40,963 bases of DNA. Origin: Prevotellaceae bacterium (lineage in GTDB: Bacteria > Bacteroidota > Bacteroidia > Bacteroidales > Bacteroidaceae). Position 1 is the first letter of the stretch. Every line of letters starts with the position of its first letter. Below the pieces are notes generated by a model, which was given only the letters and a program-made list of their open reading frames with translations, was not told where the DNA came from and did not search any database. The stretch lies in contig JALERS010000010.1 of NCBI GenBank assembly GCA_022763905.1, positions 1 through 40,963 on the forward strand, in the 5' to 3' direction. Of the stretch, positions 1 through 40,806 are shown one piece after another. Made by a program: the position numbers and the translations under genes.

Positions 1-171
1 CTACTTTTAATCTCCGTTGCAGCCTGTTCAACTCCTACTACTAAAAAACAATCTAATATTTGTGTCAGTAATACTGCACTTGCTATTGCTTTGATATATT
101 CTTTTGCCATAAAACAAAATTCGTTTTCCCCTCAACTTCTAATTGAATCCCCACTGATTTTCTACTGAGCC
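1..171 (-). mobile_element. Terminal end of an insertion sequence (probable ISAon1/ISL3-type), truncated by the window edge; outer TIR at 146-171
   Basis: 146-171 reads AATCCCCACTGATTTTCTACTGAGCC, identical to 22940-22965 and the inverse of 22362-22387. Minus strand just inside encodes MAKEYIKAIASAVLLTQILDCFLVVGVEQAATEIKS..., resembling the start of the short N-terminal region protein of ISAon1-type transposases (family call from memory). Confidence 0.6.
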
Positions 172-650
172 TGTTTTGTCCCATATTACTACTTCCCGAT
201 GCATAGCAGTTAAGTGATATCTGAGAGTATATTGACTGCTTCCTCTTAGCATCGTCGCTTCTTTTGGAAAGCACCGACGACTCTTTTACTGAGCACCATG
301 AATACTTGGGTCAGTCAATCAACTTCATTTCCCAAAGGATTCATTTCCAGCTTTCTCCGGATTCTTTTTCTCTTCATCAACTGAAATAGCAGACAGCTTG
401 GCAGAATCATACTGAATCAACAGACACCTGCCAACAAGACCCTCCTGTTTTTGTTGACAAAACGGTCATATCGGACATGCTGAATTCGGGTGACTGAGTG
501 GGCCGTGCCAAGATATGTGCTTGCGCTATTTGAGAACCGGTAGCAATGAGATGAAGCCTCTCTTGACTGGCACCCTGCAACAAGAAAGGAAATGCTAGCG
601 GGATTTACTCTACCTGTCACTTCCCGTCCCACTTGAAAATCTGCTGACCC
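172..650 (-). repeat. Copy A of a ~0.5 kb dispersed repeat, inverted relative to 29633-30178, carrying 2 units of a 22-bp tandem repeat
   Basis: The reverse complement (GGTCAGCAGATTTTCAAGTGGGACGGGAAGTGACAGG...CATGTCCGATATGACCGTTTTGTCAACAAAAAC...CAGTTGATGAAGAGAAAAAG...CAGTCAATATACTCTCAGATATCA...GGGACAAAA) aligns along its length with 29633-30178. Confidence 0.85.
253..296 (-). repeat. 22-bp tandem repeat, 2 units
   Basis: Minus strand: GTGCTCAGTAAAAGAGTCGTCG / GTGCTTTCCAAAAGAAGCGACG, followed by degenerate ATGCTAAGAGGAAGCAGTCA. Confidence 0.85.
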
Positions 651-22137: not shown

Positions 22138-22524
22138 TAAAAACACTGCCTTGCTAACTGAAGTTTCACGTGTTGGGAACCAACATGTCAGTAATTGCCT
22201 TGTTCACTGTCCCTTGTAGGCCTAACTATATTCTATAGAAACGAGTATGCATGATTTTTGGCAGTTCTATGGATAGCAGGGGCTTTGTATGTAGAATATT
22301 CTTATTCAATTTGAATAGATTGAAGTGCTTTCAATGATTCGGTAGAAGGTGACGAAAAAAGGGCTCAGTAGAAAATCAGTGGGGATTGTATTGAATAATT
22401 TTGGCTCAGTAGATAATGGGGGGACACTCGTTGAGAACGGAGAAGATATTTGTCGGAAAGACCTCTTCTGGCTTTCCGGAAGATATCAACAGGGAGGATG
22501 AAGTCACTCTTACATCTGTCTCTT

Positions 22525-22546
22525 GCGTTCAGCCTAGGCTGAACGC
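22525..22546. repeat. Perfect 22-bp palindrome, copy 1
   Basis: GCGTTCAGCCTAGGCTGAACGC equals its own reverse complement. Confidence 0.95.
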
Positions 22547-22591
22547 TCAAATATATTGATTGAAATCTCCATTTATATTGACTTCTTTCAC

Positions 22592-22611
22592 CGTTCAGCC
22601 TAGGCTGAACG
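22592..22611. repeat. Perfect 20-bp palindrome, copy 2
   Basis: CGTTCAGCCTAGGCTGAACG, same sequence as the core of 22525-22546. Confidence 0.95.
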
Positions 22612-22797
22612 CAAAAACAAGTTGGGTGCAGGGAAATGAGGAGATATCCATGTGCTCTATTTTAAATGGCAAATGAGGAATAAACTGCCTTTACAGAAAC
22701 AGAGCAGGATGGTAAGAATATCCAGTACCAATCATTTGGAACTGGTATTTCAATGAATGGATTTTTCCTGCTCCCCCCACGAAATATATTCTGAACC

Positions 22798-22910
22798 AAT
22801 CTCCGTTGCTGCCTGTTCAACTCCTACTACTAAAAAAATAATCTAATATTTGTGTCAGTAATACTGCACTTGCTATTGCTTTGAGATAATCTTTTACCAT
22901 AAAACAAAGA
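22798..22910 (-). pseudogene. Frameshifted remnant of the IS N-terminal region protein
   Basis: Minus strand reads MVKDYLKAIASAVLLTQILDYFF then shifts frame in a T run, relative to MAKEYIKAIASAVLLTQILDCFLVVGVEQAATEI in the copy at the window start. Confidence 0.65.
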
Positions 22911-23092
22911 CCATTTTGTTTTTCCTCAACTTCTAATTGAATCCCCACTGATTTTCTACTGAGCCATATTTAGGCCAATTAGTCGACTTCTTTTGGAGAG
23001 GTCTGTGTGTTGAATCGGGGAGCCAATCAATATCCTGTCTTCTTTAGGGGAGACCTTAGGTGGTTTGTGTTGTGCTAAAACGATGAAATCTG

Positions 23093-29514: not shown

Positions 29515-29632
29515 GTGTATGAAAATATAATAGAGATAAGTTGTAGTCTTGCAAAGTTAGTTTTTTAAAATTTGGCAGACAAGGGGTGGTGAATATTTTC
29601 ATGGTGTATATAAGGAAGACGGGAGACTTCTA

Positions 29633-30178
29633 CTGGGTCAATAGATTTTTTAGTGGGACGGGCAGTGACAGGTAGAATAAATCCCGCTATCGTTTCCCTT
29701 TTTGTAGGGCGTCAGCCAAAGGAGAGACTCCGTTTCATTGATGCCCGTTCTCCCATAGCAAGCACATATCTTGGCACGACCTGACAAATTACCAGAGTTC
29801 AGGATGTCCGATATGACCGTTTTGTCAACAAAAAAAACGAGGGTCTTGTTGGCAGTGTCTGTGGATTCAGTATGACTTCAGCCAAGCTGTCTGCTGATTC
29901 AGTTGATGAAGAGAAAAAGAGTCTGGTGAAAGCAGGAAATGACTCCTTTGGGAAATGAAGTTGATTGACTGGCCCAAGTATTCATGGTGCTTTCCAAAAG
30001 AGTCGTCGGTGCTTTCCAAAAGAAGCGTCGATTCTAAGCAAAAGAATCGACGGTGCTATGAAAAAGAATCGACGATTCTTTTTAAAAGAAGCGACGATGC
30101 TCAGAGGAAGCAGTCAATATACTCTCAGATGTCAATTAACTGCTATGCCGTGGGAGGTAGTAATACGGGACAAATACA
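29633..30178 (+). repeat. Copy B of the ~0.5 kb dispersed repeat, carrying 5 units of the 22-bp tandem repeat
   Basis: Collinear with the reverse complement of 172-650 from GGGTCA (29635) to GGGACAAA (30174). Confidence 0.85.
29987..30096 (+). repeat. 22-bp tandem repeat, 5 full units plus a degenerate sixth (30097-30116)
   Basis: GTGCTTTCCAAAAGAGTCGTCG / GTGCTTTCCAAAAGAAGCGTCG / ATTCTAAGCAAAAGAATCGACG / GTGCTATGAAAAAGAATCGACG / ATTCTTTTTAAAAGAAGCGACG. Confidence 0.92.
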
Positions 30179-30522
30179 TAGTAAAATCATAGTTTTTCCC
30201 CTTGGGTTTCGTGAAGCTTTCTCTCTGTTGCCTTTCTGTCTCTGTGGATTCATCTGGAGCAACACCATAGAAATGGGTGGTTTCGTAAAAGATACTTGTT
30301 TTTCCGATGAGATGCAGTGCCCTTATGAGGACTCCTGTAGCAAGTCTTTGAGTCATTCATGGCATAGGAAAGGGAGCGCTTGCCATATACTCCAATTGCC
30401 ACAATGTATGGATAGCGTTATTCAATGCAATCCCCCAGTCAATTTCTAATGAGCCCTTCGATATATAGATAGTGTATATATATTATAATGGAATACATAT
30501 ATTATATAGGGAGGAAATACAA

Positions 30523-40186: not shown

Positions 40187-40806
40187 GTATGACGGGCATG
40201 TCATACATCTGTGGTGAAAGTCCATGTGGGGCGTAGTTGCCAACGAACCCTATAGCGACTTGCAAGTTTCGAGTGGTGACGCTCGGGAGAGAAGAAGCAA
40301 TAGCGAAATCGTGGCCTGACGAACAGAAACATGGTACTAAGGCGCATCAAGCGGACAAGCTGGCCAAAGACAGTGAAGCTCCTAAAGGCAACCGTAACCT
40401 TGTTGCGTAAACCATGCAGGTAAACGAGGAAAGATGTATGGCTTATCCCGCGAGGCCTCGGCAGTCCGCAAGGATAGTAACAACGAATGTCGAGGAGTCA
40501 GCAGAGGCCGAAGTAGCCGACCGCGTGACGGTCAAGGCGAAGGGCCGAATCGTGCATTGTCTTACAAGACAATCTGTGTATTTGGAAACTGTAGTAGTCA
40601 GATGGCCGAAGAGGAACTCTCTTTTCAAGACGATAGGGCGTATCCTGACAATAGAGAAGAAGTGACGATGTCCAATATGCGGAGTCCAAAAGGGACAAGA
40701 CAAGCACGAAACCGCCGTATGCCGAACGGCACGTACGGTGGTGTGGGAGGAAAGAAAACGAAAGTAGGTCAGAAAACTTACTACGTTTTCCGACCTACCC
40801 GATTAT
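40187..40806 (+). ncRNA. ORF-less group II intron RNA (domains I-VI; end points approximate)
   Basis: 5' GTATGACGGGCATGTCATACATCTGTGGTGAAAGTCC; domain V-like hairpin ACCGCCGTATGCCGAACGGCACGTACGGTGGT (40711-40742); domain VI-like hairpin TAGGTCAGAAAAC...GTTTTCCGACCTA. No reverse-transcriptase ORF between. Confidence 0.78.

Follow-up and report, generated by a model that had tools for sequence, protein, structure and literature searches.

A minisatellite-bearing MITE in a Prevotellaceae genome, probably mobilised by an ISAon1-type insertion sequence

What is the non-coding sequence that a 40,963-bp stretch of Prevotellaceae DNA (hereafter the window, i.e., the whole stretch analysed) carries twice in opposite orientation, and how did it come to be there? 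The two copies reported by the initial annotation are genuine: copy A (172–650, minus strand) and copy B (29633–30178, plus strand) align end to end at ~85% identity, with a similarity-search E-value of 2.8e-126 that excludes chance. The main gap in their alignment spans 66 columns, exactly three 22-bp units, which bears out the earlier explanation of their difference in length. The size of ~0.5 kb did not hold: the repeat is real, and the complete element measures 821 bp.

Overall, the repeat occurs at ~57 merged places in a similarity search of the 149-contig, 2.13-Mb genome from which the window comes; not counting the right-hand extension described below, these copies sum to ~19.5 kb and make up 0.9% of the assembly (about 1% overall). 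The search of the host genome that the initial annotation had proposed thus returned the many copies with conserved ends and variable array length that it had anticipated. Many copies coincide with or adjoin contig ends, the pattern that a repeat breaking short-read assembly would give, and the element probably explains part of this draft's fragmentation.

The true extent of the element emerged from aligning the flanks of the copies: most long copies have an additional ~280 bp in common to the right of position 30178, up to a terminus reading ...TCTACTGAGCC. Extended to this right end, copy B forms a complete 821-bp element (29635–30455, plus strand) with full-length relatives on contigs C19, C24, C41, C85, C93, C103, and C11. 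Similarity among copies starts at a left terminal inverted repeat (TIR), GGGTCAATAGATTTTTTAGTGGGA (29635–29658, plus strand), and ends at a right one (30433–30455, minus strand; reverse complement GGCTCATTAGAAATTGACTGGGG). Typical copies begin GG(G/C)TCAGTAGATTTT..AAGTGGGG and terminate in CCCCAGTCAATTTCTACTGAGCC; read as its reverse complement, GGCTCAGTAGAAATTGACTGGGG, the right end imperfectly repeats the left. Alignment to copy B and to the other copies shows copy A to be incomplete. At position 171 it passes into GGCTCAGTAGAAAATCAGTGGGGATTCAATTAG..., then into an open reading frame (ORF) starting MAKEYIKAIASAVLLTQILDCF, and then reaches the contig end; what cuts off its right side is an insertion sequence (IS), whose left end starts at 171 and runs off the contig. 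Across 34 long copies, the median identity to the consensus was 86%, with most copies diverging by 9–20% and typically by ~14%, which implies that most movement was not recent.

The earlier statement that the copies encode no shared intact protein was confirmed by comparing 34 long copies to their consensus in the three forward frames: the three codon positions did not differ in mismatch rate, and synonymous changes made up the fraction expected under neutrality. A long conserved frame under purifying selection, named beforehand as an observation that would count against a mobile unit, was looked for in these copies, and no coding selection was seen. We accordingly rejected the reading of the repeat as a coding gene, as these tests carried no selection signal in any of the three forward frames. 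A 164-amino acid frame inside the element (29955–30449, plus strand) has no codon-position signal, is broken in most copies, and was judged a chance occurrence. Based on a rough ORF call, no long ORF spans any copy, i.e., placement is intergenic; 44 of the 59 neighbouring gene ends are 3′ ends, and divergent gene pairs are absent from the 13 two-sided cases. We infer that the element encodes no product and that it affects the host by inserting between genes, mostly at their 3′ ends. No Rfam family matched within the element at gathering thresholds, so the earlier suggestion that it acts as RNA gained no support here. Plasmid and phage collections yielded no sequence similar to it, and an origin from either was rejected. 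Elsewhere in the window, three Rfam matches to intron domains mark a group II intron RNA at 40270–40803 (plus strand), within 160 bp of the contig end.

The terminal repeats connect the element to a resident IS. The sequence that cuts copy A is the left end of an ISAon1-type (ISL3) element (1–171, minus strand), comprising a terminal repeat at 149–171 and the start of the first ORF at 1–110, with the remainder off the contig and the family assigned from a homologue, L224. This left-end sequence is found again where other contigs of the genome end, and contig C132 starts with the last ~61 amino acids of a DDE_Tnp_ISL3 transposase, after which comes the opposite IS end, CCCCACTAAATTTCTACTGACCC. 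A collection search with these 61 amino acids recovered IS copies of ~1422 bp, with the same type of TIR, in Prevotella, Phocaeicola, Bacteroides, and others. In L224, two proteins score as the ISAon1 N-terminal region and the ISAon1 transposase with its DDE_Tnp_ISL3 domain (NF049916, NF049917; PF01610). Duplications of 8 bp are clear at IS relatives from named genomes, e.g., GTAAAAAC at L227, CAATTTAT at L230, CAAATTCA at L237, and CAGATTGT at L277, as well as at L241 and others. The left TIR of the repeat matches the right end of the ISAon1-type IS and its right TIR the left end. Only these ends of ~26–30 bp are common to the two, which makes the repeat a TIR-only miniature inverted-repeat transposable element (MITE).

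A third element in the window (22362–22965, 604 bp) has the same terminal repeats and represents a second MITE type, which contains part of the IS left end together with a pair of CGTTCAGCCTAGGCTGAACG palindromes. Its ends close many contigs (C2, C13, C45, C56, C61, C65, C95, and C112), and it looks both abundant and recent. Ends of the IS or of this second type also lie within copies of the 821-bp MITE on contigs C1, C40, C52, and C113.

Target duplications were next examined at eight full MITE copies. The 8-bp flanks agreed at 7 of 8 positions in two copies, at 5 of 8 in two others including the window copy, and at fewer in the rest, with a mean identity of 4.1 compared to 2.4 for mismatched pairs. 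In the window, CTTCTACT (29627–29634) and CTTCGATA (30456–30463) form a possible decayed duplication, a weak match with 5 of 8 positions identical. A synteny comparison at the OmpH gene yielded no empty site for the MITE, the neighbouring 525-amino acid gene not being conserved there.

Taken together, these observations are best explained by a non-autonomous MITE, 821 bp when complete, that is most likely moved in trans by an ISAon1-type (ISL3) transposase acting on ~23-bp TIRs, a reading to which we assign a probability of roughly 0.84. The repeat is a short, dispersed, non-coding element (821 bp, ~57 places, no coding selection) whose TIRs also belong to an autonomous element, as is characteristic of MITEs. 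Several observations count against this reading: most of the MITE's target duplications are decayed or absent, the window's genome contains the ISAon1 element only as end fragments, with no intact copy assembled, no empty site for the MITE was found, and the copies' ~14% distance from the consensus makes most movement old. The initial suggestion of a non-autonomous mobile unit is upheld by the many copies, the TIRs common to a resident IS, and arrays of 2–13 units, while the extent had to be revised to 821 bp, with copy A truncated by an IS. Inversion of the 29-kb segment, also suggested there, would have to use inverted copies that share just ~85% identity across ~400 bp. In the mechanism we propose, the transposase would recognise the TIRs, move the MITE in trans, and generate 8-bp target duplications.

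The interior of the MITE is composite. A search of 400 family genomes matched more distant relatives only at element positions ~158–322, corresponding to 29792–29956 of the window (core 29823–29939, plus strand), and BLAST aligned this segment to IS3 ends in other genera. In the single-contig genome G237, the matching segment forms the right-hand terminus of an IS3-family element. This element has inverted repeats TGACTTATACTGATATAGGTAGACAC and TGACTTTTCCTGATTTCACTAGACAC, and its orfA and orfB (at locus L306) score as IS3; the MITE segment is accordingly annotated as the remnant of an IS3-family right end. Directly outside the G237 IS3 end lie palindromes at 22-bp spacing, in sequence unlike the window's. 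The MITE in turn carries an array of 22-bp units around GAATCGWCGRTKC (29986–30101; 5.3 copies according to TRF), with five units in copy B and two in copy A. Across 33 copies, arrays comprise 2–13 units, with an interval of exactly 22 bp in 105 of 106 cases, and the units of the window's genome are only partly palindromic. We propose that an IS3-family element inserted next to a 22-bp array and was then reduced by decay to its right end, and that the resulting segment was captured between two ends of ISAon1 type and multiplied along with them. Subsequent change in the array came in whole 22-bp units, gained or lost, probably through unequal exchange or slippage.

This pairing of IS3 ends and arrays extends beyond the MITE. 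Of 201 family genomes searched with the IS3-end consensus, 25 gave a match; these belong to 11 of the 30 genera sampled. Among 64 distinct outside flanks of IS3 ends, 46 displayed 22-bp periodicity (z > 3), 43 had 22 as their best period between 15 and 40, and 51 folded better than dinucleotide shuffles (z < −2). MITE copies of the window's genome (G000) and of one congener (G011) account for only four of the 46 periodic flanks; elsewhere, 42 of 60 IS3 ends adjoin 22-bp arrays. The array motifs vary by lineage (CACCGCGGTG, TATCCGYGGATA, TTGAATCGATTCAA, CACTTAAGTG, TGTTTC-n7-GAAACA, TTCCC-n7-GGGAA, and others) and are mostly palindromic, a few not clearly so. One motif, ATCCRYGGAT, was found at 22-bp spacing in 28, 39, and 32 unit pairs in three species of one genus (reversed-pattern control, 0) and in none of five other genomes searched, one of them from that genus. 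These arrays look like ~100-bp units of four palindromes, and 6 of 10 distinct arrays examined had no IS3 end in the stretch read. In 307 kb around ISAon1 copies in named genomes, a set less selected than the IS3-end flanks, tandem periods between 10 and 60 were most often 22 (6 of 15, small numbers). Palindromic arrays of 22-bp period also occur in other Bacteroidales picked without IS3 selection (L252, 682–747; L276, 2152–2214; L278, 1563–1631).

The possibility that IS3 end and array form one transposon was rejected on two grounds. In four of five two-ended IS3 copies, duplications of 3–4 bp (TTT, TTC, CCT, and GCTG) separate the IS3 from the array. In addition, two IS3-filled loci (L411 in G087 and L401 in G171) match G069 loci L406 and L400, which hold the array without the IS3, so the array predates the insertion. 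At two G237 loci, L306 and L312, IS3 copies lie on opposite sides of the same array type, i.e., the array is inverted relative to the IS. At L332/L392 (G161, contig C24), the far side of the array is bounded by an IS3 left-end-like sequence, AAATGTGTCTACCTATATCAGTATAAGACA, which places the array between two IS3-type ends. The arrays may represent an undescribed class, widespread in Bacteroidales and putatively intergenic, in which lineages replace the sequence but retain the 22-bp spacing and self-complementarity. Members of this class would serve as landing sites for an IS3-family element that inserts next to the array, its right end facing it; we rate this proposal at slightly below even odds. 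Searches confined largely to the open literature turned up no account of palindrome arrays with 22-bp spacing in Bacteroidales. Since 22 bp is about two helical turns, target choice would, if the proposal is true, follow structure or helical phasing instead of sequence. The pattern exposed, IS3 right ends beside fixed-period, mostly palindromic, lineage-specific arrays, would then be a natural setting in which to test whether a DDE transposase chooses its targets by structure, provided that one IS3 lineage does pick arrays of unrelated sequence.

In a rival reading, the IS3-type end and/or the array drove dispersal, with the MITE being IS3-derived or a REP-like unit and its ISAon1-like ends incidental. 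The IS3 right end is indeed found inside every long copy examined over that segment, and IS3 ends accompany arrays in many genomes. However, it is the ISAon1-type repeats, rather than the IS3 end, that delimit the copies, and the element has a single, internal IS3 end, so we consider this origin very unlikely. We hold a similarly low opinion of a dispersed regulatory or structural RNA or DNA element under selection, e.g., a terminator or RNA-stability element. The excess of gene 3′ ends beside copies (44 of 59) and the better-than-shuffled folding of array flanks in most genomes would fit such a role, but a 3′ bias is equally expected from selection against promoter damage, many copies are truncated or interrupted, Rfam holds no match, and 17 of 18 congeners are without the element.

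A simple segmental duplication or an assembly artefact, finally, would account for contig pairs C149/C113 and C135/C57, which have flank as well as element in common, and the assembly is a 149-contig draft in which many contigs end in or near the element. Yet the copies are dispersed, most with unrelated flanks, defined termini, and 9–20% divergence from the consensus, which excludes simple duplication as the general explanation and leaves it a scarcely credible account of the two window copies. We thus retain a MITE mobilised by an ISAon1-type transposase as the preferred explanation.

The distribution of this MITE is narrow: beyond the 17 congeners without a match, the remaining one (G011) has a single fragment (L178, 668–882), and the best reading is amplification within this species. 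The fragment might be taken for an ancestral, pre-MITE state, an interpretation we rejected: it and its flank match contig C27 of the window's genome at 96% identity along 908 bp, a similarity that breaks off within the MITE, whereas OmpH is only 54% identical between the two genomes. Judging from this sequence contrast, the fragment was probably transferred horizontally or misbinned.

Among known systems, the closest in organisation is BrickBuilt of Porphyromonas gingivalis, an intergenic MITE with a leader, a 23-nt minisatellite, a tail, and IS-type ends (PMC4596501). Both are intergenic MITEs of narrow host range, with non-coding leader and tail, an internal minisatellite of variable unit number, and TIRs common to a resident IS family. 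They differ in that BrickBuilt has IS5-type ends (GAGACCTTTGCA; PMC4596501), which the window MITE lacks, its own ends being of ISAon1/ISL3 type (GGSTCAGTAGA), in copy number (19 elements vs ~57 places), in the IS3 right end inside the window MITE, and in unit sequences that are unrelated as far as printed. As its ends belong to another transposase family, the window MITE is, by its sequence features, an element that works like BrickBuilt without being a member. MITE464/PgRS of P. gingivalis likewise contains an internal tandem repeat, of 41 nt (PMC4596501), but differs in repeat length and has IS5-type ends. The present element thus adds an ISAon1/ISL3-type case to the few bacterial MITEs with a minisatellite, the two literature cases both having IS5-type ends. 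ISAon1-family IS (NF049916/NF049917; ISL3 type) have the same terminal repeats and the 8-bp duplications expected of the mobilising element; they are autonomous and ~1422 bp long, whereas the window MITE is non-autonomous. For the association of IS3 and arrays, the nearest precedent is IS1397, ISKpn1, and ISPsy8, IS3-family elements that target intergenic REP palindromes with ~3-bp duplications (PMC1525189). These insert at the palindrome, whereas the IS3 described here lies beside the array, right end towards it and not at the palindrome axis, and the palindromes vary in sequence from lineage to lineage and sometimes inside one genome, unlike in the REP-targeting case. The internal-array type also resembles REP/BIME sequences (PMC2817692, PMC3733652) in forming dispersed clusters of short, putatively intergenic palindromes with many copies per genome, and is set apart from them by its strict 22-bp spacing.
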